From an uncultured Winogradskyella sp. (lineage in GTDB: Bacteria > Bacteroidota > Bacteroidia > Flavobacteriales > Flavobacteriaceae): a stretch of DNA of 64,000 nucleotides. A program made the position numbers and the translations under genes. The stretch covers positions 124,001 through 188,000 of the forward strand of contig NZ_CANLYI010000004.1 in NCBI RefSeq assembly GCF_947495255.1, read 5' to 3'. The notes under the pieces were generated by a model. That model was not told the DNA's origin. It did not search any database and saw only the letters and a program-made list of their open reading frames with translations. Shown here piece after piece: positions 1 to 14,075 of this stretch (position 1 is the stretch's first letter; each line of letters opens with the position of its first letter).

Positions 1-890
1 AACATTGTTAAAATCCCATGATTTTGGTAAACTTTATGAAGCACATAAAAGTTATCTTTAAAAATTTGAATGCCAAAAGAGTAAGTGAACATTATAAATA
101 TACCAATAGCGAATAATATAAAAAGCGCATAAATTCGTTTTACAGAAGTATAAAGTAAATACAATAAGAAAAGTAAATTGAATAAATAAATTGTTTTTGT
201 ACCAATCATAAAAGAAAAAACAATTGAACACAATAGAAAAATAAAATTAATGTTGGTTTTCTTATTTAAGTAACTGGCAAAGAAATACATTATTAAAATG
301 ATATATATATAACTTGAATGACTAGCGTGTAAAAAAAGACCATTGTAACCAAACCTATTAGAGAACCCTATATAAGTTTTAAATAAATCTAAATTAAAAA
401 TAAACCCAATCAGAATTGCAAAAGCATTTATTATAAAAATACCTTTAATTGTTGTGTCTAAATAACTCAATTGTTTTTTTGCAATTATTCTGTCAGTTTT
501 GTTTATAGGCTTAAAGGCATAGTACAAAATGAAAACAAAAACATATGAATTAAGCGTATATAAATTTAAAACGAGTCTGTTTAAAAAACTTTCCTTTAAA
601 AGAAAAAATTGTCCCAGTATATAAAACATAGTAAATAGAACTATGCCTTTTAATAATTGTTTACTAAATTCTTTCTTATAAATAAAAATATATCCACATA
701 AAAAAATTTCAACTAAAAGCTTAACAACCCCTGAGACTCTAGTGAAATCAAAATTACTAAACTTTAGATATTTACTTATAAATTCACTGAAGTAAAAAGC
801 AAATAAAATAAGAGAAGGTAATACTAACTTTATATCAAATGAATTAAAGTCAATCTTTTTTTGATCGAAGGATTCTATAGTATTTAACAT
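1..890 (-). CDS. O-antigen polymerase/ligase-like membrane protein (partial, C-terminus off window)
   Basis: This ORF is absent from the supplied track because its stop codon lies beyond base 1. Reading the minus strand from the ATG at 890 gives about 296 uninterrupted codons starting MLNTIESFDQKK. The product is a string of hydrophobic helices with short charged loops and a long aromatic-rich loop containing FLHASHSSYIYI, the layout of Wzy/EpsG-type polymerases and O-antigen ligases. Such proteins act in the inner membrane, joining undecaprenyl-linked repeat units or transferring finished chains. It overlaps the upstream glycosyltransferase gene by 41 bases, so the two are co-transcribed. 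Sequence identity in this family is very low, so polymerase versus ligase cannot be decided by eye. Confidence 0.7.
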   Translation of the reverse strand, partial: MLNTIESFDQKKIDFNSFDIKLVLPSLILFAFYFSEFISKYLKFSNFDFTRVSGVVKLLVEIFLCGYIFIYKKEFSKQLLKGIVLFTMFYILGQFFLLKESFLNRLVLNLYTLNSYVFVFILYYAFKPINKTDRIIAKKQLSYLDTTIKGIFIINAFAILIGFIFNLDLFKTYIGFSNRFGYNGLFLHASHSSYIYIILIMYFFASYLNKKTNINFIFLLCSIVFSFMIGTKTIYLFNLLFLLYLLYTSVKRIYALFILFAIGIFIMFTYSFGIQIFKDNFYVLHKVYQNHGILTM

Positions 891-1629
891 TCCATTTTAT
901 TGTAAACTTTATTATACTTTTTATATTCCAAAAATTATACTTACTAAAAATATTTTTTGAACTAGTCTCATTTAAGTGATGAAATACTATCGCGTCTGAT
1001 ACTGCAATAATTTTAAACCCTTTATTATGAGCTTCAAAACAAATATCAATATCTTCGCAATATAACCTATATCTTTCGTCTAAAAGACACTCATTTTCTT
1101 TGAGTAATTTATCGCTAATTAACATACATGCACCAAGACACCAATCTATTTCGGGTCCTTGCATTTGTGATTCGTCTAAAGCTTTTAAAATCCCTAATCT
1201 CTTTTTAAATACATTGATAAAATTAGGAAAATGTTTCCAAGTCTTTTGGAGTCTTCCGTCTGGATATTTTAATAATGGTGTAGTAATAGCAATTTTAGGA
1301 TTGTTTTGCATGGTTTTATATAGAATATCTATAAAATCCATTTCAAAATAAGTATCCGGATTTAATAATAAAAAATACTTTGTTTTAAGATTGAAGTGCC
1401 TAATTAGATCATTATTGTTCTTAGAGAACCCTTCTAATTTCTTTTTAATTAAAACAGAATTACTGTAGGAACTATTTAAGAGTATCTCTGCAGTGTTATC
1501 ACTAGATTTAGCATCACAGAAATAAACGTTTTTTATATTAAAGCGTGTTAAAGAGTTTAATAATTTTTGAATAAAGTCTCCGTGATTATGAGTAACCACA
1601 AGAATACTAATATTTCCTTCTTTAGCCAT
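850..1629 (-). CDS. Glycosyltransferase family 2 (rhamnosyltransferase-like)
   Basis: A 259-residue GT2-type enzyme with a GT-A fold. The N-terminal ISILVVTHNHGDFI strand-loop and the NPDT element (residues 90-93), which takes the place of the metal-binding DXD, are typical. WCLGACMLI near 163-171 followed by YCEDIDIC near 190-197 matches the acceptor/catalytic segment of rhamnosyl-type GT2 enzymes related to WbbL. It should add a sugar to the lipid-linked repeat unit on the cytoplasmic face. Production of dTDP-rhamnose by the rfb genes at 14-17.5 kb makes rhamnose a plausible donor sugar, but this is inference. It overlaps both flanking genes, so it belongs to the long operon. The plus-strand ORF 1100-1351 is its shadow. 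Confidence 0.85.
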   Translation of the reverse strand: MAKEGNISILVVTHNHGDFIQKLLNSLTRFNIKNVYFCDAKSSDNTAEILLNSSYSNSVLIKKKLEGFSKNNNDLIRHFNLKTKYFLLLNPDTYFEMDFIDILYKTMQNNPKIAITTPLLKYPDGRLQKTWKHFPNFINVFKKRLGILKALDESQMQGPEIDWCLGACMLISDKLLKENECLLDERYRLYCEDIDICFEAHNKGFKIIAVSDAIVFHHLNETSSKNIFSKYNFWNIKSIIKFTIKWNVKYYRILRSKKD

Positions 1630-2662
1630 GAAAAGTAATTTTTTTTAGTTCCTTTATATAATCAGCAAACGAATAATTACTAAGATAGGTACGTCTTACA
1701 ATAGGTTTAATTTCTTCTTTAGTTCTCGAAAACTTATTAAACAATATTTCGAAATTATCTAAATCGTTATTTAAAACTTCAGCTACATTATCATCACAAA
1801 GATTTTGCGATACAACTTGTTCTGTTGTGAATACGGTTAGTCCACTCATTAGAGCCTCTATATAAACCAATGGAGAAACTTCATAATTTTCATCACTTAA
1901 AAATAATAATGCATCATTTTGCTGTAATGCTTCAAATTTATCATTTTCATTTAGTAAAGGTCCATAATAAGTAAGAAATTGATACTCTTTGTTTAATGCT
2001 TTAATCAATGTCTGGTCTTTATCACATAAAATACCACCATAGATATTTAGCTTACATTTAATGCCTTTTGCTTTAATTAATTGTGCTAATTTATCGATTC
2101 TATAAATTCCTTTTGCTTTAGAAATATTAGATAAAAAAATAAAATTTACCTCATCAGATTGGTTATATCTCAAAGGTTTAGATGTATAGTAATCTGGCAA
2201 CGCATTAGGTAATAAAAAACAACTTAGTCCTAATGCTTCAATAATTTTGAATTGAGCTTTATTTATAACAATAATTTTTGTTTTTAAAAACAACCTTTTG
2301 TTATAAAACTTAATTTTATCCTCCAATCCATTTGCATGAATATGAATCGTAACATTTAAGGTTTTAAAATGACAAACAAATAAGATGATTAAATCGCGAT
2401 AAAAAGCAAATCCTTTTGGTGTAAAATTAAGATAGACACTGTCCTTTTTTCTAATTTTAAAAAGTCGTTTAATGACCTTTAAAAGAAACGATATTTTACT
2501 AAAACTAAACTTACCAAAATTATCATAGTCCTTGGCTTGTGCTGTATCTATTGTATTAATTTCTATTTCATTATCTAATTCAAGAGCATCTTTTATATGC
2601 GTAGATATAACCTTAACACCATTGTTGGGTCCAGAAATCGGAAAAACAAAGAATAGACTCAT
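1622..2662 (-). CDS. Glycosyltransferase family 4 (GT-B fold)
   Basis: A 346-residue retaining-type glycosyltransferase. The N-terminal half starts with the usual G-rich acceptor loop (PISGPNNGVKVI), and the C-terminal half contains FIFLSNISKAKGI, the start of the donor-binding Rossmann domain, and YEVSPLVYIEALMSGL, matching the EX7E-type donor motif of GT4 enzymes. It acts on lipid-linked polysaccharide intermediates at the inner face of the membrane. It overlaps the next gene downstream by 8 bases and lies 9 bases after the O-antigen ligase-like gene upstream. Donor and acceptor cannot be deduced from sequence. Confidence 0.85.
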   Translation of the reverse strand: MSLFFVFPISGPNNGVKVISTHIKDALELDNEIEINTIDTAQAKDYDNFGKFSFSKISFLLKVIKRLFKIRKKDSVYLNFTPKGFAFYRDLIILFVCHFKTLNVTIHIHANGLEDKIKFYNKRLFLKTKIIVINKAQFKIIEALGLSCFLLPNALPDYYTSKPLRYNQSDEVNFIFLSNISKAKGIYRIDKLAQLIKAKGIKCKLNIYGGILCDKDQTLIKALNKEYQFLTYYGPLLNENDKFEALQQNDALLFLSDENYEVSPLVYIEALMSGLTVFTTEQVVSQNLCDDNVAEVLNNDLDNFEILFNKFSRTKEEIKPIVRRTYLSNYSFADYIKELKKITFHG

Positions 2663-2671
2663 TTAGCGTTT

Positions 2672-3913
2672 TCACTTAATTTTTTGATTATTATTAAAAT
2701 TCACATTTACGAGTAAACATGTAAAAAAGACAAAGAAAATAATTCCTTTATTTCTTACCAAAGCAGACTCTGTTAAATTAAAACACAAATATATAAACCC
2801 TATCGCAATTAAAAGCTTATTATGACTTACAAGTCCCTTTTTAAATATAACGAAGAATAGCGAGACTAATACTAAAAACCCAAAAACACCTGTATATATA
2901 AACTCAGTTAGATATTGATTATGTGAATTAAACTTTTGGGTTTTTCCATGAATAAAATTATTCTTTTCGTAATACTTCATCAATTCATCAATCTCATCTC
3001 CTGGAGAAACTCCTGTCCAAAAATTATTTGATATAAGATCTATTGAGCAATAATATTTAGCAACTCTTGCTCTAACAGCAGTAAAATTAGAGCCAGAAAA
3101 ATCGCGAGATGTAATATCATTTTTTATATCTATACCATTTAATTTATCTACTACAAATAGTGATGAGAGCGAGACACTAACAAGCAATAAAGCTGCAATA
3201 AATAATTTAAATTTAGTATGCTTTTTTAGTAAAAACCCAAAATAAACTATCATTATTAAAAACAATCCCGTCAATAAAAATGAATTAAGAAAAAACAATA
3301 ACACTGTTAAATATAGAGTTAGCGTTAATCTAAGCGCCATATTTATGTTTAATATTCCTTTTGACTCAATCCCATCATAACCAATAATAAATAGCGCAAA
3401 CAACACTTGAGTTCCAAAATAAATAGGGTGTGTACCTTCTATAACTTTTGTCAGCTCCATATATGAGAAAAAATTACCATTAATCTGGTTAAATGGATTT
3501 GGAGATGCATAATACAAGGTTCTTAAAATAGCCGCACTATAAAAGATAAGACTTGCCAATAGAATTGACAAAACATACCATTTTAAGGTTTTAAAGACGA
3601 GTTTTTTATTAATAAAACCAGAAAACAAATAACAAATTATAGGTATTACTAAGAAAACAATACGGTGCTCTAATTTTTTAAACCCTCTATCTAAATTATT
3701 TGTGTATAACAACGCAATGACCATTAAAGCAAATAACAATATAAGCGGTGTATATAAAGGTTCCCACTTCTTTACAGACATTCTATTTGTTGCAGAATAG
3801 ACAATCGCAGTAACCAGAGTTAAAATAATAGCAATATTGTTAGCTAACATCCAAAATGGAATCGTAACTGCAATAGTTATGAATAAAAAATCAACTACTT
3901 TTTCGTACTTCAT
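2672..3913 (-). CDS. O-antigen ligase/polymerase family membrane protein
   Basis: A 413-residue polytopic inner-membrane protein with about ten to twelve hydrophobic helices. A large periplasmic loop in the second half ends in FNSHNQYLTEFIYTGVFG, which matches the Wzy_C/O-antigen ligase motif with its conserved His and Asn before a helix. It either ligates the finished polymer to lipid A core or polymerises repeat units. Its 5-prime end overlaps the next polymerase-like gene by 23 bases. Three proteins of this general class lie in this locus, so at least two functions (polymerase and ligase, or two polymerases) are probably divided between them. Confidence 0.8.
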   Translation of the reverse strand: MKYEKVVDFLFITIAVTIPFWMLANNIAIILTLVTAIVYSATNRMSVKKWEPLYTPLILLFALMVIALLYTNNLDRGFKKLEHRIVFLVIPIICYLFSGFINKKLVFKTLKWYVLSILLASLIFYSAAILRTLYYASPNPFNQINGNFFSYMELTKVIEGTHPIYFGTQVLFALFIIGYDGIESKGILNINMALRLTLTLYLTVLLFFLNSFLLTGLFLIMIVYFGFLLKKHTKFKLFIAALLLVSVSLSSLFVVDKLNGIDIKNDITSRDFSGSNFTAVRARVAKYYCSIDLISNNFWTGVSPGDEIDELMKYYEKNNFIHGKTQKFNSHNQYLTEFIYTGVFGFLVLVSLFFVIFKKGLVSHNKLLIAIGFIYLCFNLTESALVRNKGIIFFVFFTCLLVNVNFNNNQKIK

Positions 3914-5042
3914 AACTTTCTGGTTGTAGACTGTAATATATTATCAATAGATAAAAGATAAAAAGTGTATCAAAATAGATAAATACATTATCTGACAAAA
4001 ATAAGAGATTCATAAATATTAAAAGAGGAATCGCCTTTTTGCTCACTAAGTTAATTTTAAAAAAACCAAAAACCCATATTAAGTAGGAAACAAAACCCAT
4101 TTCCACTATTATTTTTAGAATATCAGAATGTAAGAAACTAATATTCTCAAAATTAGCAGACAAAAATAAATTAGTAGAACCTAACGAATTACCAAAGAAA
4201 ATATTAGATGAAAAATGATTAATTGTATCTGTATAAACTCTTAATCTTCCTTGTGTAAACCAATTGGGACTAATACCTGTGATATCAGTTATCAACTGGT
4301 CAAAATTACCTTGTATAAAATTATATATTATTATTAATAACGTAAAATTGAGAAATATAAACCAATAGTAAACATTTTTCTTATTTGAAGCTTTTTTATT
4401 TCTAATACTAAAAAACCAGTATACAGCCAACCCAAGCAATGCGCCTACTATTGAAATTCTTTTAAAAGCCAACAAAAATAAAATGATAGACACAATTGTT
4501 CTCACTTTTCGTTTTTCTATAATATAAAAGATCATAAACAAACCAAATGGGAAAGCCATCCAAGATTCTGTTTTTAGGGATGATGTTTTTAGCGCTAGGA
4601 TAAAATCATTTATAATATTAACATTAAAGAAAAAGCTAATATTGGTAATAATAAAAATTATAGCATAGACAACAAATAGTGAGTCTAAAATAACACCTAC
4701 CGGCTTTTTAATAACTGTGGTTATTAAAATTATGGATAAAATAGGTAACAATATTAAAAGCGCCTCTTCAAAAAATCGAAAAGACAAATCGTAACTAACT
4801 ATAGAAACAAATAAGTTAAGAATAATTAAACCCGAAAAAAGCAAAAGGTTTTTTAAAGGCGTCGCATAAATTTTTAATTTTCTAATCCCAGAAAATGCAA
4901 ATAATAAAAAAATAGGCGGTATCAAATATTTGGTATAGCGTAAAACCGAACCATAGTTAGTTGAAATAGCGGATACACCAACCAACAGGCACAAAAACCA
5001 TAGTAATAAAGAATCTTTTTTTACTATTAGTTTTTTATCCAT
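3891..5042 (-). CDS. Wzy-like O-antigen polymerase/ligase membrane protein
   Basis: A 383-residue, multi-helix membrane protein. The segment SFLHSDILKIIVEMGFVSYLI near the C-terminus is the family hallmark (HSD plus a following helix with a small residue) seen in Wzy polymerases and WaaL ligases. An additional loop with the string WFTQGRLRVY precedes it, resembling the conserved Arg-rich periplasmic loop that contacts the undecaprenyl-diphosphate sugar. It overlaps the 5035-6054 gene by 8 bases and the 2672-3913 gene by 23 bases, so translation is coupled. Which of the polymerase-like genes acts on the main repeat unit is unknown. Confidence 0.78.
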   Translation of the reverse strand: MDKKLIVKKDSLLLWFLCLLVGVSAISTNYGSVLRYTKYLIPPIFLLFAFSGIRKLKIYATPLKNLLLFSGLIILNLFVSIVSYDLSFRFFEEALLILLPILSIILITTVIKKPVGVILDSLFVVYAIIFIITNISFFFNVNIINDFILALKTSSLKTESWMAFPFGLFMIFYIIEKRKVRTIVSIILFLLAFKRISIVGALLGLAVYWFFSIRNKKASNKKNVYYWFIFLNFTLLIIIYNFIQGNFDQLITDITGISPNWFTQGRLRVYTDTINHFSSNIFFGNSLGSTNLFLSANFENISFLHSDILKIIVEMGFVSYLIWVFGFFKINLVSKKAIPLLIFMNLLFLSDNVFIYFDTLFIFYLLIIYYSLQPESYEVRKSS

Positions 5043-6054
5043 TTAAAAGTCTTTCTAAATCAAAATTATTTTTTTCTCTAAATGTTTTAAATAGTAAGTC
5101 GTTATCTAAATAATCTTCATAAGAAAAAACCTCACAACCATATTCACTCGCATAAAACAATAATGATGTTGTAAAACCATAAACTTTTAAGCCAGAATTT
5201 GTTAAAATAATTTGCTCAAATGCAATATTATTGGGTATAACTTCTGTGTTTATGTTGTGTTGTTTAATTAGGTTTTCGATTTTAATACAGTTCGTTTTAG
5301 ATTGTGCAGGATGAAATTTTATATAAATTTTACCGGCTGTAACATCTTCTAATATTCTTTTTATTCCGTTAAGCATTGTGCTTAACTTCATATTGCCTTG
5401 CTCAACAGCTCCTTCTAAAACTAATACAGAGCTCCCAGAAATGTCATAATCGATATGATTAGATGGTAGCATTTTTATTCTTTCTACATGATATGGTAAA
5501 CCCTGAAATCCTTTTGAAGTAATTGAATAAAAAATTGAAGGTGTCTTTTTAGCAAATCTTGTTAAATCAAAAGTTTTGACAAAAAAGATACGTTTTTTTC
5601 CAATAAACGGTAATGCATTTAAAGTACTCTTAACCAATTCCTTTACGATGCTCTTGTCATTATTATTCATTAAGTATAATGAATAGGCATTTACACCTTC
5701 TTCTATAATATGAAGTTCGTCGCATTGATTGTGAGTTACTATAATCTGCATTGCAGGATGAAATACATGTGGCAAATACGCTCTAAACTTTATACCATCT
5801 CTAAATTGATTAGTTAATAGTTTATCAATCTTATTAATCTGCTTATGTTTTTTGTAAAAATTTGTGAGTCCAAAAGAATCTAAATCATCATGTATATCAG
5901 TAATGTCTATTATTGTGAAGTTACTAATTTCATCGTTTTCATAGTTTCTAGAAATCACAAATACAATATCCTCATTTACCAAATGAAACTTTTTAATAAT
6001 CGCTTTAGTCACATAATAAGTTAAATGGCTATGTATATAAAAGAGATTTTTCAT
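5035..6054 (-). CDS. Polysialyltransferase-like glycosyltransferase
   Basis: A 339-residue protein with the two short motifs that define the bacterial polysialyltransferase/lipooligosaccharide sialyltransferase group: an acidic-acidic-Gly motif (EEG, residues 118-120, in IIEEGVNAY) and an HP motif (residues 248-249, in IKFHPAQ). A third feature, SGLKVYGFTTSLLFYA near 287-301, resembles the C-terminal nucleotide-binding segment with its Ser/Thr pair. Such enzymes use CMP-activated sugars in a GT-B-like fold. The gene is four cistrons downstream of an acylneuraminate-type cytidylyltransferase in the same operon, which fits a CMP-keto-sugar donor. Overall similarity is distant, so the exact family (GT38, GT52 or related) and the donor are inferred. 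Confidence 0.68.
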   Translation of the reverse strand: MKNLFYIHSHLTYYVTKAIIKKFHLVNEDIVFVISRNYENDEISNFTIIDITDIHDDLDSFGLTNFYKKHKQINKIDKLLTNQFRDGIKFRAYLPHVFHPAMQIIVTHNQCDELHIIEEGVNAYSLYLMNNNDKSIVKELVKSTLNALPFIGKKRIFFVKTFDLTRFAKKTPSIFYSITSKGFQGLPYHVERIKMLPSNHIDYDISGSSVLVLEGAVEQGNMKLSTMLNGIKRILEDVTAGKIYIKFHPAQSKTNCIKIENLIKQHNINTEVIPNNIAFEQIILTNSGLKVYGFTTSLLFYASEYGCEVFSYEDYLDNDLLFKTFREKNNFDLERLLNG

Positions 6055-7484
6055 TTAAACTTATTCACTAGGTTTTTGAAGAATTTACGCTCTAAAATTA
6101 TTAAAATAATCAAATAATAGAATATAGACAAAGGTACAATGTAATACTTTTTTTCATCTGCTATAAATAAATCTTTTGCTATAAAATAGAATGGTAAAGC
6201 TACTAAAGTAGATACTATTATTACTTTAAGAATTTGAATAATTGGGAAGTATGAGAACAAGTTTGTTGATAGCCTTCTATTAATAAATAAAATAGGAATA
6301 ATTACGGTAGTATAGCTTGCTATTAATGTTGCAATGACAGCTCCAATATTTCCATATATTGGAATCAAAATCAAATTACAAATAACATTCACCACAGCAC
6401 TCGCAACAACATGGATTGGAGCTAAGTTTTTTAATCCAATTATACCCATAAAAATACTAAACGGAAAAACTGATATTAAAAAACGTAAGGTGTATATTTT
6501 AAAAATACTTCCTGATTCTTCAAACCGAGAACCAAATAGTAGAATGATTATCTCTGTAGAAAACAAAAAGCAGAATACTATAATTGGAAGTAATAAAACA
6601 GAAATTTGTTTCGTCGTTGTTTTAGTAAGTTTTAGTGTTTTTGTAATATGGTTATCTCGTAATAGTTCTGTTATTTTAGGGGTAATCACGGTAAATAACG
6701 ATGTTGTAATCACTGCAATAAAAGGAATATTAAATGCACCAACTTGATAGAAAGCAAATACCTCTGGAGTTTCTATGGCAGAGATCATATATTTATCTAT
6801 TTGCATATTTAGTATGCCTGCTAAAACCAAAAATATAGTTGGCAACACAAATTTTAATTCTTCATTCTTTAGATTAACATCTGTTTTAAAATTAAACTCT
6901 TTAAATGATTTAGCAAAAGGAATACTATACACTAAAAACTTCACCACTTCGTATATTAAGAAAAACTGTAAGATTTCAGTAATTGTAAACTCATGGGTTC
7001 CGAAATAAAAAAAGCCAGCTAGATAACTTATTAAAAACAAAAAGCTAGTTACGTTTAAATAATTGAGCTTATCAGAGAATAAGAAGAAATTAGAGAAAAA
7101 AGTATTCGTTATTTTAAACAAAATAATAAATACAAAATAGACAATATAGATTGGAAAAAAATCATTTTCGAACCATAAAGCAAGCTTGTCCTTTAGTACA
7201 AAAAAAAGAAATGCGGCTAACATGGAAAAGAAAATCATACTAAAGAAAAAGCGCTTGTATAGCGCGTTTTTCTCTAAAAAGGTATTGTATTTACTAATAT
7301 AATAATTGAGTGTTGTCGGAAACGCAGATGCGACCGTTACCGCAAAGGTTAGGATAACGAAAAACTGCTGAAGCTTACCAAATTCAGAAACGTCTAAAAT
7401 CACTCTAGCTAAACCAATGTTTAAAACTAAAGTCTCTAGAAGTCTAATAAAATTACTTGCACTATATTTTAATTGAGTTTTCAA
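6051..7484 (-). CDS. Wzx-type polysaccharide flippase (MATE/PST superfamily)
   Basis: A 477-residue membrane protein with 12 to 14 predicted helices and no soluble domain. The N-terminus (YSASNFIRLLETLVLNIGLARVI) and the segment AFYQVGAFNIPFIAV match lipid-linked oligosaccharide flippases of the polysaccharide-transport family. It should move undecaprenyl-diphosphate-linked repeat units to the periplasmic side, where the polymerase-like proteins act. It overlaps its neighbours on both sides by 4 bases. Plus-strand ORFs 6334-6747 and 6775-7008 are shadows of it. The presence of a Wzx-type protein, Wzy-like proteins and a Wzz-like protein indicates a Wzx/Wzy-dependent pathway and not an ABC-exporter pathway. 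Confidence 0.9.
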   Translation of the reverse strand: MKTQLKYSASNFIRLLETLVLNIGLARVILDVSEFGKLQQFFVILTFAVTVASAFPTTLNYYISKYNTFLEKNALYKRFFFSMIFFSMLAAFLFFVLKDKLALWFENDFFPIYIVYFVFIILFKITNTFFSNFFLFSDKLNYLNVTSFLFLISYLAGFFYFGTHEFTITEILQFFLIYEVVKFLVYSIPFAKSFKEFNFKTDVNLKNEELKFVLPTIFLVLAGILNMQIDKYMISAIETPEVFAFYQVGAFNIPFIAVITTSLFTVITPKITELLRDNHITKTLKLTKTTTKQISVLLLPIIVFCFLFSTEIIILLFGSRFEESGSIFKIYTLRFLISVFPFSIFMGIIGLKNLAPIHVVASAVVNVICNLILIPIYGNIGAVIATLIASYTTVIIPILFINRRLSTNLFSYFPIIQILKVIIVSTLVALPFYFIAKDLFIADEKKYYIVPLSIFYYLIILIILERKFFKNLVNKFK

Positions 7485-8113
7485 TTCAGTTTTACGGCAT
7501 CTTGACTAAATGTAGAAATATAATTTGGGCTTACCTCCTTTAGGCTTTGGTTATTATAACCATAAAAAGAGATATCATTATTATCAGCGGCTTCAAAATC
7601 ATTTATAGAATCACCTATTAAACACGTACTCTGCTTTTCGTAGTTATGTTTACTAATAATATCTTTAACCAACTTGTTTTTAGCTGTTGGCGAACCTTCA
7701 ATAGATAAGAAATATGCAGATAAATTTAATTCCTTACATAAAAAACGAAGCTCTTCTTGATCAGATCCTGAGACAATGTGAAACTTATAATTACTATAAT
7801 TTTTTTCTATAAATGAAACACTATCTTTTATTAGATTTTTTTGGTCTATAAGAGATTCTCTCATAATAACAGAAAAACGATTAGCATAATCCAAAATTTC
7901 CTCTTCAGTTGTTTCTCTACCAATTATGTGTTCAAAAAAATATCTTATTTTAACATATCTAGAAAGACCACCATTATATCTGTGATAATCAACAAGCTTA
8001 TCAACTTCTAACGGCTTAAAGTCTTTAAAGATCTCTCTAAACCCAAAGTCTCTAACTTGCATGGAGTCTAATATAACACCATCGAAATCCCATAGAATTG
8101 TTTTAAATTTCAT
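7481..8113 (-). CDS. HAD-superfamily sugar phosphatase
   Basis: A 210-residue HAD subfamily IA hydrolase. Motif I is WDFDGVILDS (nucleophile Asp9, general acid Asp11), motif II is SGSD (115-118), the motif III lysine lies in TAKNKLVK, and motif IV is IGDSINDFEAAD. The cap domain lies between motifs I and II, as in phosphoglycolate-phosphatase-like enzymes. Placement between the cytidylyltransferase (start 8788, end 8114, no gap) and the flippase (4-base overlap) suggests it removes the phosphate from a 3-deoxy-2-keto sugar acid phosphate before CMP activation, like KdsC or the KDN-9-phosphate phosphatases. The substrate is inference from context. Confidence 0.82.
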   Translation of the reverse strand: MKFKTILWDFDGVILDSMQVRDFGFREIFKDFKPLEVDKLVDYHRYNGGLSRYVKIRYFFEHIIGRETTEEEILDYANRFSVIMRESLIDQKNLIKDSVSFIEKNYSNYKFHIVSGSDQEELRFLCKELNLSAYFLSIEGSPTAKNKLVKDIISKHNYEKQSTCLIGDSINDFEAADNNDISFYGYNNQSLKEVSPNYISTFSQDAVKLN

Positions 8114-8788
8114 TTAATTAAGGTGTTTATATATTAATTCTGCCATATCAAAATCGTCCGGCCAGTCAATATCAAATGATGCATAACCTTTTGTTTCATA
8201 TAAAAACGGTTTGTTTCCAATTCGATCTAATGTTTCAATGTATTTAGAAACGGAATTTATAAAAATACCACTATTTATCTCATAAAGCTTTGGTAACGTT
8301 TGAGTTCTTGGCCATTTTTCTTTATTCCTATCGTAATTAATACTTCCGTTTTTATCCCATAAAAACGTTTGTAAGTTATTTACAGACATTAAACTATCAA
8401 ATGTATCTTCTTCTAAATTTTTAAGATACGTTTTTATAGCTAAATCATAATGTTCTGCTTTTAAAAATGGTGATGTGACATGTGTCCATAATACATGGCC
8501 AGATTTTATTATTTTAGGCACATATTTAATTAGATCATCTGTACTAGTAGAGGATGATGCTAGATGCTCTGGTCTATTGTCTACAATAATTTTATCACCA
8601 AAGCGCTCTACAATTTTCTTTACTTCATTATCATTTGTAGAAACAACTATAGTGTCAACTAGCTTAGCTTTTAATAATTCTTTAATCTTTAAAAATAATA
8701 ATCCTCCTTCTACTTCAGCAAAAGGCTTCGTGTTTTTATTAGGAACTCTTTCACTACCTGCTCTACATGGTAAAAATACTGTAATCAT
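8114..8788 (-). CDS. Acylneuraminate cytidylyltransferase family protein (CMP-sugar synthetase)
   Basis: A 224-residue nucleotidyltransferase. The P-loop-like motif PCRAGSERVPNKN (residues 7-19) corresponds to the IPARGGSKRIPxKN signature of CMP-sialic acid and CMP-Kdo synthetases. Further family marks are NRPEHLASSSTST, TSPFLKAEH, PRTQTLPKLYEINSGIF and a C-terminal FDIDWPDDFDMAE carrying the metal-binding aspartates. It would transfer CMP from CTP onto a 2-keto-3-deoxy sugar acid. The gene directly abuts the HAD phosphatase and overlaps the aldolase by one base, so the three are translationally coupled. No sialic acid synthase (NeuB) or epimerase (NeuC) gene is seen in the window, so the substrate is probably made by the adjacent HMGL-type aldolase. 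Confidence 0.88.
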   Translation of the reverse strand: MITVFLPCRAGSERVPNKNTKPFAEVEGGLLFLKIKELLKAKLVDTIVVSTNDNEVKKIVERFGDKIIVDNRPEHLASSSTSTDDLIKYVPKIIKSGHVLWTHVTSPFLKAEHYDLAIKTYLKNLEEDTFDSLMSVNNLQTFLWDKNGSINYDRNKEKWPRTQTLPKLYEINSGIFINSVSKYIETLDRIGNKPFLYETKGYASFDIDWPDDFDMAELIYKHLN

Positions 8789-10338
8789 TATATTAGACTA
8801 TGAATTGAAGATGTTGATAAATTCTTATATTTTGTAGGTGTTAAGGCTAATACATTTAAGTTTTTAATTAATAACAAATCGTTAATAATAGCCTGATTTT
8901 CTTGTGCTAATATCTGTTGTGTTTGGTTAATTAAGGCATCATAACCATCAAAACCGACTAAATATACATTGTGGACTCCAAGATCTAAACCTATTTGAAT
9001 AGCGATAGTTAGAGGTGATTCCGTGGATGATTTAGTAAAGCTTATAGAAGAGAGTTCTTTAGATATTGATTTAATCTCTTTGGGAATAACCGTACCCATT
9101 ACTCTAGGAAATGGCGGATATATGCACGTTTGAGATAGTTTTGTGTGGTCATTTATGTTACTTAATAACTTTTCGCTCTCAAAGCCAGATAAAGCATAAA
9201 ACTGATCACATTTCACGTCTAAATAATCCGATACATTCCGTGCGCCAGCATGTATTAAACATACACTCTTTTCTTTTTTTATTAATTTTTTAATCGCAGT
9301 GTTATGATTTCTTGCTGATTTTCCTCCTCCCAAAATAATAGTAGTTTTGTAAAACCTCTCTTCTTTTTCTAGAATTGGTAATTTAAAATTATCCTCAATA
9401 TCTTCCTTTTGGTTTTTTAATGCATTTACCACACTACTCATAGGATATCTATTCATCCCAACCCATTCCATCACTTGCTTTTGAGGAAGTGAAAAAGCAC
9501 CAGAAAACATATATGGTAAATTTGTTCCCCAACCATGTTTCTTTTTCATGTCTTCAAATGAAGCAACGACTTTACCTAATTTAGTATATTCTATTTCTAT
9601 GTTTTTAGCTTTATTTAAATAAGTTAAAAAAAGTTCTGTTTTTAGATTACCTGCTCCTCTTCCCATTCCTGTAATTGTACAATCTACAATCTCACAACCT
9701 TCATTTATAGAAGTAATAGTATTAATGAGTGCCATTTCTAAATTATTATGTCCGTGAAAACCAAGTTTTACATTCGTTTTTGATTTTACTAAGGTCATAA
9801 TGTCTACAACATCATTTGGCATGATACCTCCAAAAGAATCTACCATATAAAAATAGTCTATAGTATCTTCTAGTCCTTCTAAGTCATTTAAAAAATCAGA
9901 ATCTTGTTTCCAATTAGACATATACATAACATTAAAAGCGACCTCAAAACCCATCAACTTTACGGCTTTTGCTAACTCTATTGCTCTTTTAAAGTTTTTT
10001 GGGTCTATGGCAATCCTAACCATAGCAATATATTTAAGGCATGGCTTTAATAAATCTTCTACATGATGACCTCTTATATCCTTTTCATTAAGAATTATAG
10101 CCAGTTTTTTTGAAGGCATTAACGCTTTCAATTCTGCCATTACATGTTCTGGGCAATAAAAATATTCTCCTAAATACCCATTTAAAGGAATGCTTCGGTA
10201 GCCAATTTCTACATATTCAATGGGAAGAACCTCTATGGCCCTACAATAATCATGTACAAGGTCTTTATTAAAGTCCCAATTAGTATAATAACCACCATCT
10301 CTTAATGTACAATCTAGTGTCTTAAATTTTTTTTCCAT
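8788..10338 (-). CDS. HMGL-like aldolase fused to a DUF115/GT42-like C-terminal domain
   Basis: A 516-residue two-domain protein. Residues 1 to about 300 form a DRE-TIM metallolyase barrel: LDCTLRDGG (8-16) is the catalytic and metal-binding start, VDSFGGIMPND follows at 166, HGHNN (195-199) gives the HxH metal ligands and GMGRGAGN (224-231) the next conserved loop. Family members include HMG-CoA lyase and 4-hydroxy-2-oxovalerate aldolase. Residues 330-516 start with IILGGGKSAR and include SPLTIAIQIGLDLGVHNVYLVGFDGYDAL; by eye this resembles the Rossmann-like DUF115/MptE and GT42 sialyltransferase superfamily. The role is probably carbon-carbon bond formation to build a keto sugar acid that the neighbouring HAD and CMP-transferase genes process. 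The function of the C-terminal domain is unknown. Confidence 0.8.
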   Translation of the reverse strand: MEKKFKTLDCTLRDGGYYTNWDFNKDLVHDYCRAIEVLPIEYVEIGYRSIPLNGYLGEYFYCPEHVMAELKALMPSKKLAIILNEKDIRGHHVEDLLKPCLKYIAMVRIAIDPKNFKRAIELAKAVKLMGFEVAFNVMYMSNWKQDSDFLNDLEGLEDTIDYFYMVDSFGGIMPNDVVDIMTLVKSKTNVKLGFHGHNNLEMALINTITSINEGCEIVDCTITGMGRGAGNLKTELFLTYLNKAKNIEIEYTKLGKVVASFEDMKKKHGWGTNLPYMFSGAFSLPQKQVMEWVGMNRYPMSSVVNALKNQKEDIEDNFKLPILEKEERFYKTTIILGGGKSARNHNTAIKKLIKKEKSVCLIHAGARNVSDYLDVKCDQFYALSGFESEKLLSNINDHTKLSQTCIYPPFPRVMGTVIPKEIKSISKELSSISFTKSSTESPLTIAIQIGLDLGVHNVYLVGFDGYDALINQTQQILAQENQAIINDLLLIKNLNVLALTPTKYKNLSTSSIHSLI

Positions 10339-10345
10339 AGCTCTA

Positions 10346-10864
10346 CTAAAATAATCCCATTACCATCTCTTCAATATTTATTGTAACAAAGAATGGGTCA
10401 TAAAAATTATTTATTGTTTGTCTTTTATACGTGTTAATTCCGTCTGTTTTTTCTAAGTACTTGTTTGGTTTAAAAATTAAATCGAACTCGTTAGAGTTAA
10501 TTATCTTTTTTTTATTGCCAGTAGAAAAAACGACTTCATCAATTTTAATAACGGTATTATGTTCTTTAGCCCCAACATCTAAACGCAGTTTTATTGGGTA
10601 TATTTCTTTAGGAAGATTAAAAACTAATTCTTGAGTATTGTTACCTCCTTTAACCTTTAAACTTACGTGCTCGTCTGGGTTATATTGACTTAAAATGTGC
10701 TCCGAAAAAAACAAATCAAAAGTATCATCTTCTACAACAATAGCTTTCACTGTAACTGTTAAGAATTCTTGTTTTGCTTTAGCGTTGTCAATAATAGTTG
10801 GTTTATTTTTTTCCTCACAACAAAAAAGTGTTAGCAAAACAAAAACTACTAATACTTTTCTCAT
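10346..10864 (-). CDS. Lipoprotein, paralogue of the AlgJ-like protein's N-terminal domain
   Basis: A 172-residue protein with a short hydrophobic N-terminus ending FCCEE, which fits a lipobox (Leu-Phe-Cys-Cys), so a lipoprotein is likely. It shows no known catalytic motif. It aligns by eye along most of its length with residues 31-160 of the AlgJ-like protein encoded divergently at 12408: both contain an E(D/N)D-F-x-(L/V)F(F/Y)SE segment, then LRLD(V/L)G, then PNK(Y/F)-(L/I) and finally YDP(F/Y)-(F/L)-x-(T/S). This points to duplication of a beta-rich accessory domain. It is the first gene of the long minus-strand operon and sits just after a good promoter. A role in polymer modification or binding is inference. 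Confidence 0.72.
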   Translation of the reverse strand: MRKVLVVFVLLTLFCCEEKNKPTIIDNAKAKQEFLTVTVKAIVVEDDTFDLFFSEHILSQYNPDEHVSLKVKGGNNTQELVFNLPKEIYPIKLRLDVGAKEHNTVIKIDEVVFSTGNKKKIINSNEFDLIFKPNKYLEKTDGINTYKRQTINNFYDPFFVTINIEEMVMGLF

Positions 10865-10996: not shown

Positions 10997-12403
10997 ATGG
11001 TATTTAGTTCTACTGTATTTCTATTCCTTTTTCTCCCCATTTTTTTAACAATACATTTTATAATCCAAAAAAAATACCGAAACATTTTCATTCTGTTTTC
11101 AAGTTTGTTCTTTTATGCTTGGGGCGAATTTTATCTTGTGTTTTTAATGATTTGCTCTATTTGCGTGAATTATCTTATTGGCTTAGGACTCTCTCGTTTT
11201 GAAGGCAAACAAAAAAAAACCATACTTTTACTAGGTGTTTTAGCTAATTTACTCGTCCTAGTTTATTATAAATATACTGGATTTATTATTGACAACCTTG
11301 CAAATATTGGGCTAAATATACCTGTGAATGCTGATAGTATTATTCTTCCTATTGGTGTTTCGTTTTTTACGTTTCAAAATATCTCCTACCTCGTAGATGT
11401 TTACCGTAAAGAAGTACCTAGTCAAAAAAATCTTGTGCATTTAGGTTTATATATCTCACTTTTTCCGCAATTAATTGCTGGTCCAATTGTTAGATATGCA
11501 GACATTCACAAAGAGATAAAAAACAGAAAAATTGATGCGGCAATGTTTGAATCTGGTATTCAAAAATTTATTAGAGGTTTAGCAAAAAAAGTGCTTATCG
11601 CTAATAGTTTAGGTTTTATTGCTGATAAAACTTTTGAAATTGCACCATCAGATTTATCTTCAGGTATTGCTTGGCTAGGCATTATATGTTATTCTCTTCA
11701 AATATATTTCGACTTTTCGGGTTACTCAGATATGGCTATAGGATTGGGTCGTATGCTAGGCTTTAATTTTAAAGAAAACTTCAACTATCCTTACATTTCT
11801 AAATCTATAAAAGAATTTTGGAGAAGATGGCACATTTCATTATCGTCCTGGTTTAGAGATTATCTTTATATTCCTTTAGGAGGAAATAGAAAAGGAAAAC
11901 AACGTATGTATTTAAACCTCATCATTGTATTTTTAGTAACAGGTTTGTGGCATGGTGCAAGTTGGAACTTTGTTGTTTGGGGACTATTTCATGGTTTTTT
12001 TATTCTGCTCGAAAGAAATATATCTTTTCCATGGGCTAAAAAATTTACATTTCTAAGTCATTTTTATCTTTTACTCACAGTATCGATAGGGTGGGTTTTC
12101 TTCAGGTCCGAAGACTTAACTTATGCTGTATACTATATTGCAAAACTATTTTCCTTTTCTAAAGGAACTGATATTTCGCCAATTATGTATTTAAACAATT
12201 ATGTTGTTTTTATCTTAGTTATCGCACTGCTTTTTTGCACACCAATAAAGACATTTATAAAAAATAAAATATCAGCACTAGTTATTAATAATTCGACCTT
12301 GAGCAATTCATTAGGACGAGTTTTTTATTTAATACTATTTGCTTTTACAATTTTAGAATTGTCTCAAACTACTTATAATCCTTTTATTTATTTTAGATTT
12401 TAA
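10997..12403 (+). CDS. MBOAT-family O-acyltransferase (AlgI-like)
   Basis: A 468-residue polytopic membrane protein of the membrane-bound O-acyltransferase family. The hallmark region DFSGYSDMAIGLGRMLGFNFKENFNYPY, then EFWRRWHISLSSWFRDYLYIPLGG, and the active-site histidine in GLWHGASWNFVVWGLFHG are all present and in order. Proteins of this type carry an acyl group (usually acetyl) across the inner membrane for transfer to a polysaccharide such as alginate. It is followed 4 bases later by an AlgJ/AlgX-like gene, the classic partner that completes the transfer in the periplasm. The location between two sugar-polymer operons suggests O-acetylation of the polymer made here; the substrate is inferred. 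Confidence 0.92.
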   Translation: MVFSSTVFLFLFLPIFLTIHFIIQKKYRNIFILFSSLFFYAWGEFYLVFLMICSICVNYLIGLGLSRFEGKQKKTILLLGVLANLLVLVYYKYTGFIIDNLANIGLNIPVNADSIILPIGVSFFTFQNISYLVDVYRKEVPSQKNLVHLGLYISLFPQLIAGPIVRYADIHKEIKNRKIDAAMFESGIQKFIRGLAKKVLIANSLGFIADKTFEIAPSDLSSGIAWLGIICYSLQIYFDFSGYSDMAIGLGRMLGFNFKENFNYPYISKSIKEFWRRWHISLSSWFRDYLYIPLGGNRKGKQRMYLNLIIVFLVTGLWHGASWNFVVWGLFHGFFILLERNISFPWAKKFTFLSHFYLLLTVSIGWVFFRSEDLTYAVYYIAKLFSFSKGTDISPIMYLNNYVVFILVIALLFCTPIKTFIKNKISALVINNSTLSNSLGRVFYLILFAFTILELSQTTYNPFIYFRF

Positions 12404-12407
12404 TATT

Positions 12408-14075
12408 ATGAGTAAGAAAACATCTTTTATTATTTCAATCCTTGTTTTTATTCTAGGCTATTTTCTCTTAAGCTTAAAAAAAACTAAGCCTAATGAGATT
12501 GAAATAACCATTGAAGCTAAGGTATTAGAAAATGATAATTTTCAAGTTTTCTATTCTGAATCTCAAAATTTTAATCAAGAACAAAGTACTAGAATTAATG
12601 TTTTTGGCTCTAATGATTCTCAAAATATTAATTTTAAAATACCTCTTCAAAACATAGAAAATTTAAGATTAGATTTAGGTATTAATAAAGCGCAAAAAAA
12701 CATTGAGTTAAAAAGTATAACGCTTAAAACCGAGACTGATAAAGTCGTCTATAATGCAGGTGATGTTTCAACTTATTTTAGTCCTAATAAATTTATTAAC
12801 ATCAATAAAGGCATATTAACATTAAATGAAGTTGCTAATGTTTATGACCCTTACTTAATCTCTACAGAATTAGTTACGGCAGATATCGCTAAAATATCAC
12901 AGATTAAAAACTATATTAGTCCATTAATTGCTATAGTTATTTCCCTTATTATAGGACTTTCAGTTTTCTTTTTTTGCGTGACGGGAATCAAGAATTCAGT
13001 ACCTTATAAGCCATCACAAATTATTTTTATAACCATTTTTATCGTAGCTCTATTTTCACCTCTAATAGTTAAATTGTTAGGCGTTAATCCTAAAACTAAT
13101 TTTGTAGAAAAAAGAGAATTAAATACTTTTCCTGATTTTGAATTTTCAAAAGTTTACACGAAGAAATTTGAAGCTTATTATAATGACAATTTTGGACTAA
13201 GAAACTTCTTTGTTAAATATTCTGGACTAACCAAAATATACTTATTTAAAACATCTCCTGCACCTGATAGAGCTATATTTGGAAAAGACCATCATATGTT
13301 CTCAGGAAGACCTTATGTTTTAAATCCTAAGTTATTTTCTCATTCAGATTTAAAATATAAATGTGAAAGTATCATTGCAAGAAAAACGAAACTCAACAAA
13401 CAAAACATTACTTATATAGCAGGTTTTTGGCCTAATAAACACTCCATATATCCAGAATTGCTACCAAGTAATGTATATATATCTTTTAAAGATAAAAAAG
13501 CCATTAGCGATCAAATGGTCGAGTACTTTAAGGATAAAGACTTTAACTTTTTTGATGTAAGAGAGGATTTAAAGGCAAAGAAAAATGATTATAATTTATA
13601 TCAAAAGTTAGATGGACATTGGAATGAATATGGTGCATATTTTGCTTATCGTTCTTTCTGTAAACAAACAAAAAAAGAACTTCAACTAACCGCATTTGAT
13701 TTAGATAAGTTTAATGTTGAAGAAAACACCATATATGGAGGTGATCTTACAAACATTATTGGTGTTAATAGAATTGATGGTTATTCAGATATTTTACCAA
13801 AATTCTCTTTAAAAAACCCATCAGAAGGCTTCATGTATTTAGATACAAATGGTTTTCCGCCTCAAACAGTTAGAACAAAAAACACAAACTGTAATAACAA
13901 ACTGAAAGTATTAGTTTTTAGAGATTCTTATACTATTAACTTGGTTCAATTTCTATCTCTGCATTTTTATGAAGTAACTTATATTTGGAAAACGTATGAT
14001 GAAACTTATGTAAATAAGTTAAATCCAAATATTGTTATTAGCGGTAAATTAGAAGGCAGCGTTAAGTATATCTAA
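12408..14075 (+). CDS. AlgJ/AlgX-like SGNH O-acetyltransferase partner with extra N-terminal domain
   Basis: A 555-residue membrane-anchored protein. One hydrophobic helix lies at residues 7-23, then a beta-rich segment (about 31-160) shared with the lipoprotein at 10346, then two more helices (about 172-191 and 204-223). The remainder is an AlgJ/AlgX/DHHW-type SGNH domain: DRAIFGKDHHMF, LDGHWNEYGAYF (Asp402 and His404) and LVFRDSYTIN, where RDSY around 505-508 takes the place of the GDS nucleophile loop. It probably transfers the acyl group delivered by the MBOAT protein to the nascent polysaccharide in the periplasm. The helix-domain-helix-helix front end is unlike the single-helix AlgJ. 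Confidence 0.82.
   Translation: MSKKTSFIISILVFILGYFLLSLKKTKPNEIEITIEAKVLENDNFQVFYSESQNFNQEQSTRINVFGSNDSQNINFKIPLQNIENLRLDLGINKAQKNIELKSITLKTETDKVVYNAGDVSTYFSPNKFININKGILTLNEVANVYDPYLISTELVTADIAKISQIKNYISPLIAIVISLIIGLSVFFFCVTGIKNSVPYKPSQIIFITIFIVALFSPLIVKLLGVNPKTNFVEKRELNTFPDFEFSKVYTKKFEAYYNDNFGLRNFFVKYSGLTKIYLFKTSPAPDRAIFGKDHHMFSGRPYVLNPKLFSHSDLKYKCESIIARKTKLNKQNITYIAGFWPNKHSIYPELLPSNVYISFKDKKAISDQMVEYFKDKDFNFFDVREDLKAKKNDYNLYQKLDGHWNEYGAYFAYRSFCKQTKKELQLTAFDLDKFNVEENTIYGGDLTNIIGVNRIDGYSDILPKFSLKNPSEGFMYLDTNGFPPQTVRTKNTNCNNKLKVLVFRDSYTINLVQFLSLHFYEVTYIWKTYDETYVNKLNPNIVISGKLEGSVKYI

Follow-up and report, generated by a model that had tools for sequence, protein, structure and literature searches.

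A two-domain aldolase linked to CMP-ulosonate synthetases defines a recurrent gene cassette with a probable role in bacterial surface polysaccharide synthesis

Cytidine monophosphate (CMP)-activated keto sugar acids, such as sialic, legionaminic and pseudaminic acid and 3-deoxy-manno-octulosonate (Kdo), shape host recognition, phage adsorption and capsule structure. In the NeuB-type pathways for KDN and sialic acid, a pyruvate unit is joined to an aldose or aldose phosphate to yield an ulosonate or its phosphate, after which a phosphatase, a CMP synthetase and CMP-sugar transferases complete the route. In Bacteroides thetaiotaomicron, BT1713–BT1715 comprise a KDN-9-P synthase, a phosphatase and a CMP-KDN synthetase. 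Genome screens for such acids use NeuB or KdsA, and a cassette with any other condensing enzyme would escape them. The current study concerns a candidate for such a cassette within 64,000 nucleotides of DNA (hereafter the window; positions 124001–188000 of contig NZ_CANLYI010000004.1, here C4) from the 4.2 Mb genome of an uncultured flavobacterium, Winogradskyella sp. On its minus strand, from window position 10338 down to 5035, five genes encode a 516-amino acid (aa) HMGL/DRE-TIM aldolase (termed ALD), a CMP-synthetase-like protein, a HAD phosphatase-like protein, a Wzx-like flippase and a PF07388 polysialyltransferase-like protein. Consecutive genes share 1 or 4 bases or meet with zero gap, an arrangement as in one operon, and all five proteins exceed their Pfam cut-offs (Table 1). 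The genes lie in the places and in the order given by an earlier interpretation of the letters by themselves (the sequence-only reading). Based upon computed gene order, protein families, the ALD fold with its metal ligands, and cross-phylum conservation with interchangeable synthetases, we consider it probable that the cassette is a module for a CMP-activated 3-deoxy-2-ulosonic acid of a Wzx/Wzy-type surface polysaccharide.

Genomic context lends strong support to the role that the sequence-only reading had assigned to ALD, that of a DRE-TIM condensing enzyme in a CMP-keto-sugar-acid pathway. Scanning genome contigs with the ALD sequence alone returned 60 loci (L-numbers below are locus labels), two of which end inside ALD, leaving 58 to be evaluated. 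A CMP-ulosonate synthetase is encoded no more than 3 kb from ALD in all 58, and in 52 it is immediately adjacent on the same strand. In a gene-order control using the same loci, a synthetase neighbors 53 of the 60 ALD genes as opposed to 27 of 620 other genes (4.4%), which rules out a chance neighborhood of the two. The partner is of the NeuA/PseF type in 30 loci, of the KdsB type in 26 and of both types in 2, and on the ALD tree the type switches 10 times, a number that is not firm, as some forks are poorly supported. Since both families activate a 2-keto sugar acid with cytidine triphosphate (CTP), this exchange of partners points to the class of the product. Near ALD, 46 loci encode a HAD protein, 7 others encode a PfkB-type sugar kinase, and none encodes both. 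The kinase loci all belong to Bacteroidales (L044, L045, L047, L048, L049, L050 and L063), including Phocaeicola vulgatus (L044), and the kinase is a homolog of 2-keto-3-deoxygluconate (KDG) kinase (2afb, E 4e-90), which suggests 2-keto-3-deoxy acid chemistry. The HAD motifs DxD, SGSD and GDSxND are retained in 44–46 of 47 relatives. Among the ALD loci, no further accessory gene is conserved, amino-sugar genes included. We propose to define the cassette as a two-domain ALD together with a CMP synthetase and a HAD protein (or the KDG-kinase homolog), a definition that embraces the window, L004, most of the 58 loci and the held-out loci as well.

The held-out loci come from another collection of 396 Bacteroidota genomes, 9 of which, this genome included, encode a full-length ALD (>700 bits). 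Below these the score drops to 180 bits, a gap indicating that the family is both sharply bounded and patchy. Synthetase and HAD genes adjoin ALD in L075–L077, L079 and L081, whereas L074 and L080 are repeats of genomes in the first set. L078 is only an apparent exception, as its extended region (L103) reads ALD, an extended short-chain dehydrogenase/reductase (SDR), a small gene, a KdsB-like gene, HAD and PF07388. A plasmid of the alphaproteobacterium Leisingera sp. M527 (NZ_CP081038.1; L105) carries an ALD gene (536 aa, 26% identity), an annotated KdsB gene and a HAD gene in a polysaccharide locus. Winogradskyella endarachnes, Bizionia argentinensis and Pedobacter cryoconitis are among the strains that carry the cassette. 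A genome-context search for aldolase, cytidylyltransferase and HAD genes together, which the sequence-only reading had proposed as a check, finds this set in other phyla, with a patchy distribution across Bacteroidota, Balneolota, Campylobacterota, SAR86 and Alphaproteobacteria.

The ALD of the window, whose nearest named relative is that of Winogradskyella endarachnes (93%), contains two domains. Its N-terminal ~320 residues match PDB entry 3dxi_A, the N-terminal domain of the “putative aldolase” BVU_2661 of P. vulgatus (E 4e-107), and were modeled by AlphaFold with a mean pLDDT of 91.5. Foldseek searches with this domain returned 3dxi first (1.1 Å root-mean-square deviation), followed by the 4-hydroxy-2-oxovalerate (HOA) aldolases 1nvm (E 4e-16) and 4lrs. 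R13, D14, H195, H197, N199, R227 and N231 are invariant in 47 relatives, and the first four of these align with the metal site of 1nvm. A fold and metal ligands like those of the HOA pyruvate aldolases favor ALD as the source of an ulosonic acid, but they would equally suit a catabolic HOA aldolase located in the cluster by accident, and TIGR03217/PRK08195 is indeed the best equivalog-type match of ALD. This was also an outcome that the sequence-only reading had regarded as fatal to its own proposal, and we find it exceedingly improbable. ALD scores 89.9 bits against TIGR03217, for which the cut-off is 286, and its invariant Tyr17 aligns with His21 of 1nvm, the catalytic base of HOA aldolases. 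Likewise, the HOA-aldolase motif GMGAGAGN reads GMGRGAGN in ALD, including the invariant R227, and together these two replacements set the ALD family apart from the HOA aldolases. An acylating acetaldehyde dehydrogenase neither adjoins the window ALD nor occurs among the recurrent neighbor families of the 60 loci, and the conserved linkage to CMP synthetases is equally at odds with catabolism. A look-alike of such a dehydrogenase, identified by eye, does occur beside the single-domain relatives in L114, L116, L117 and L118. Single-domain relatives (~340 aa) from Mesorhizobium, Paraburkholderia, Priestia and Legionella, as well as those in L112–L114 and L116–L118, are found without a synthetase of the cassette kind. 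L115 (G343:C236) is a possible partial exception, as its single-domain HMGL-like aldolase (~348 aa) adjoins NeuB and a weakly KdsB-like protein is encoded ~2.5 kb away; the locus may represent a separate route to a sugar acid, one in which the two kinds of enzyme occur together.

The second domain of ALD (approximately residues 322–516) had been overlooked by the sequence-only reading. Its predicted structure (pLDDT 93.3) weakly resembles HPPK/MptE 8sd5 in Foldseek (probability 0.99, TM 0.50, E 3e-3), the other matches being generic Rossmann folds. A profile match to the GT42 structure 2p2v is similarly weak (E 0.058), and ALD homologs match the MptE-like family PF01973 at E 0.045–0.082, under its cut-off. 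The GGG and GxDxY motifs of this domain include the invariant residues G337, G339, G462, D464 and Y466. ALD is a two-domain family consisting of an HOA-aldolase-like metal barrel and a C-terminal domain with weak resemblance to MptE/GT42, and we hypothesize that the latter might bind a nucleotide or a CMP-sugar. A broader and decidedly more tentative proposal would be that ALD constitutes a third class of sugar-acid synthase, joining a metal-dependent pyruvate aldolase to an MptE/GT42-like domain that binds a nucleotide or a CMP-sugar, and that it supplies surface glycans with a so far undescribed ulosonic acid, CMP-activated and non-aminated, which NeuB/KdsA surveys miss. Judging by the KDG-kinase partner, this acid is perhaps a 3-deoxy-hex- or heptulosonic acid.

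Several inferences can be drawn as to how the cassette might operate. ALD would add pyruvate, as a metal-bound enolate, to an aldose that is most likely phosphorylated and drawn from central metabolism, thus yielding a 3-deoxy-2-ulosonate or its phosphate. The HAD protein would strip the phosphate from the ulosonate phosphate, the CTP-dependent synthetase would convert the ulosonate to CMP-ulosonate, the PF07388 (GT38-type) enzyme would transfer the ulosonate to the glycan, as a GT29- or GT42-like enzyme may do in other genomes, and Wzx would export the glycan. What we infer in this scheme is which reaction ALD catalyzes, in what order HAD action and CMP activation occur, that PF07388 transfers this particular sugar, and what the product is. 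Conservation is limited to ALD, the synthetase and the HAD protein (or kinase), so the aldose is probably a widely available metabolite; that a phosphatase belongs to the set suggests a phosphorylated one. Given the lack of conserved amino-sugar genes and the KDG-kinase homolog of Bacteroidales, a simple, non-aminated 3-deoxy-ulosonic acid is favored over an amino-nonulosonic acid. Its chain could have any length from hexulosonic to nonulosonic; the sequence-only reading had considered an unusual ulosonic or nonulosonic product. Downstream transferases from CMP-sugar families also speak for a CMP-activated product: PF07388 is found in 9 loci and GT29-like proteins in 9 (one member scoring 38 bits against a cut-off of 23). 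Five further downstream genes were called GT42-like by eye, the single one checked matching only the MptE-like family, under its cut-off. The PF07388 protein of the window carries IIEEG and KFHP, corresponding to the D/E-D/E-G and HP motifs of GT38 and confirming those noticed previously in this protein; the HP motif is common to sialyl- and beta-Kdo-transferases (PMC5517516). Searches of the PDB found no relatives of this protein and no informative relative of the window HAD protein, so the substrate is not readable from either.

A number of observations weigh against this scheme. The cassette is known here from genes, fold and conserved residues, and the loci are partly non-independent (L025 and L026 are identical). 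With Tyr17 at the position of the HOA-aldolase base His21, the mechanism of ALD must differ from that of its structural relatives. The KDG-kinase homolog that replaces the HAD protein in Bacteroidales would act in the direction opposite to a phosphatase, and neither protein is encoded in L028, L040 or L061. Furthermore, L024, L027, L029 and L039 also contain an HpcH/HpaI pyruvate aldolase, and ALD might therefore perform another step there. An extended SDR is present in L024, L039 and L103. The HpcH/HpaI aldolase and/or the SDR mark a cassette subtype, with two pyruvate aldolases in the HpcH/HpaI loci.

The synthetases carry markers of their own. Of 28 KdsB-type cassette synthetases, 25 have Q and C where the motif KH-x-G-I-Y has H and G, and NeuA-type cassette synthetases have H for the Q of the QPTSP motif (W-x-H-V-T-S-P) in 27 of 32, whereas this Q is kept in 6 of 7 alignable other NeuA-type proteins from the same loci. 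These changes, which are family markers and not proven pocket changes, would be in keeping with a sugar that is neither Kdo nor sialic acid. The Leisingera KdsB-like protein has the marker as KQVCIY, and a reverse search of 395 genomes starting from a cassette KdsB-like gene found two matches with Q-x-C-[IV]-Y, both adjoining ALD and HAD (one repeats a first-set genome). Five matches that have the canonical KH-x-G-[ILV]-Y do not lie beside ALD and HAD. It is conceivable, though we think it unlikely, that ordinary Kdo, KDN or a different known ulosonic acid is what the cassette produces, in which case the enzyme would be new and the sugar would not; such a reading narrows the ulosonic acid proposal without excluding it. 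Many cassette synthetases are named 3-deoxy-manno-octulosonate cytidylyltransferase by NCBIfam subfamily models, and acceptors from central metabolism, such as arabinose 5-phosphate, would suffice for such a product. However, the three cassette KdsB-like proteins tested score 128–152 bits against the kdsB equivalog TIGR00466, under its cut-off of 155.2, the KH-x-G motif is altered in most KdsB-type cassette synthetases as described above, and the cassette would be redundant with the canonical KdsA and KdsB of the host.

Other sugar-acid genes are indeed encoded by this genome. Its single match to PF03102 lies on contig C7, which encodes NeuB (397.8 bits) and an acetyltransferase together with NeuC (418.6 bits, above cut-off), and no synthetase adjoins these genes. 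Contig C3 encodes a LegF-like synthetase with LegB-like and PtmE-like neighbors, contig C9 a canonical KdsB (187 bits, above cut-off) and contig C12 a KdsA-like protein. Thus, the sequence-only reading was correct that the window lacks NeuB, NeuC and KdsA, but its description of a pathway without NeuB/NeuC does not extend to the genome. A legionaminic-acid-like pathway appears to be split between L002 (C7:315800-335700; NeuB, NeuC and acetyltransferase) and L071 (C3:8000-27900; LegB-, PtmE- and LegF-like). As the C7 genes lack a synthetase alongside, the window synthetase could in principle activate a nonulosonic acid made by the host NeuB and NeuC, with ALD having an unrelated job. We regard this as quite improbable. 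The LegF-like synthetase and its LegB- and PtmE-like neighbors are already available on C3, just as Kdo has its own KdsB, and neither pathway would need the window synthetase; the sequence-only reading had anticipated that such pathways might feed the CMP-transferase, and they do exist, but each with a synthetase of its own. In addition, just 6 of the 60 ALD loci include NeuB, the ALD–synthetase link spans phyla in NeuB-free loci, and the W-x-H-V-T-S-P marker distinguishes ALD-linked synthetases from other NeuA-type proteins. The window synthetase itself matches CMP-Neu synthetases in the PDB (E 1e-12) and scores 78.7 bits against PseF (TIGR03584), under the cut-off of 205.7.

The operon is embedded in a Wzx/Wzy-type cluster that also encodes two Wzy/ligase-like proteins and glycosyltransferases and includes a dTDP-rhamnose operon. 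The small lipoprotein-like gene directly upstream of ALD (family c34) recurs in four related loci (L004, L005, L007 and L017), and the association is optional. By eye, its product resembles the N-terminal part of a DltD/AlgX-like protein of 555 aa (12408-14075, plus strand), the gene for which comes after a DltB-family MBOAT gene (10997-12403). Together, these genes might serve to O-acetylate the same polysaccharide.

Table 1. Features of the ALD operon and its neighbors (window positions).
Feature	Position	Strand	Details
ALD	8788-10338	-	516 aa; PF00682, 77 bits (cut-off 29)
ALD N-terminal domain, DRE-TIM/HMGL-like TIM-barrel pyruvate aldolase, proposed ulosonate synthase	9376-10338	-	residues 1-321
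ALD C-terminal domain, Rossmann-like	8788-9375	-	residues 322-516 (about)
CMP-ulosonate synthetase-like, NeuA/PseF type	8114-8788	-	224 aa; PF02348, 60 bits (cut-off 22.6), E 4e-16
HAD phosphatase-like	7481-8113	-	210 aa; HAD_2, 55.8 bits (cut-off 23.8), E 8e-15
Wzx flippase-like	6051-7484	-	477 aa, TTG start; PF13440, 28 bits (cut-off 23), E 1.6e-6
PF07388 polysialyltransferase-like (GT38 type), proposed CMP-sugar transferase	5035-6054	-	339 aa; 37.5 bits (cut-off 23.3), E 2.6e-9
Wzy polymerase/ligase-like, downstream, same cluster	3891-5042	-	PF04932, E 9.5e-8
Second Wzy/ligase-like protein	2672-3913	-	PF04932, E 2e-15
GT4-like glycosyltransferase	1622-2662	-	PF00534, E 3.5e-7
GT2 glycosyltransferase	850-1629	-	PF00535, E 8e-13
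Small lipoprotein-like gene directly upstream of ALD	10346-10864	-	no Pfam match

If the proposed function is correct, the cassette would represent a widespread non-orthologous route to CMP-activated sugar acids, one that includes the human gut species P. vulgatus, and it would provide a function for the structural-genomics “putative aldolase” 3dxi. No earlier description of the cassette and no paper on 3dxi, a structural-genomics entry, were found in the open-access papers searched; for the cassette this is weak evidence, as subscription journals lie largely outside that collection. As far as found, the logic of the pathway is known, while its condensing enzyme and the domain fusion therein are not.

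When compared with described systems, the cassette combines familiar parts in a distinct manner. Like the GT38 polysialyltransferases, the window transferase exceeds the PF07388 cut-off and has both signature motifs, but its cluster contains no NeuB partner and its donor sugar is only proposed. 3dxi is the solved N-terminal domain of an ALD ortholog, and the corresponding P. vulgatus gene adjoins a NeuA-type synthetase and the KDG-kinase homolog. With the HOA aldolases DmpG/BphI (1nvm), ALD shares the TIM barrel, the RD and HxH metal site and the pyruvate-type binding motif DS, yet it differs in Tyr17, in GMGRGAGN, in its C-terminal domain and in having no partner aldehyde dehydrogenase. Similar to the KdsA–KdsC–KdsB pathway for Kdo, about half of the cassettes couple a phosphatase with a KdsB-related synthetase, although these cassettes contain no KdsA, their KdsB-like proteins lack KH-x-G, and the host encodes canonical KdsA and KdsB separately. 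The sequence of steps proposed here is that of the KDN and sialic acid pathways, but whereas NeuB is dependent upon phosphoenolpyruvate, the cassette has as its proposed condensing enzyme a DRE-TIM pyruvate aldolase that depends on metal and bears an additional C-terminal domain, and its phosphatase is of the HAD_2 type with a cap rather than KdsC-like.

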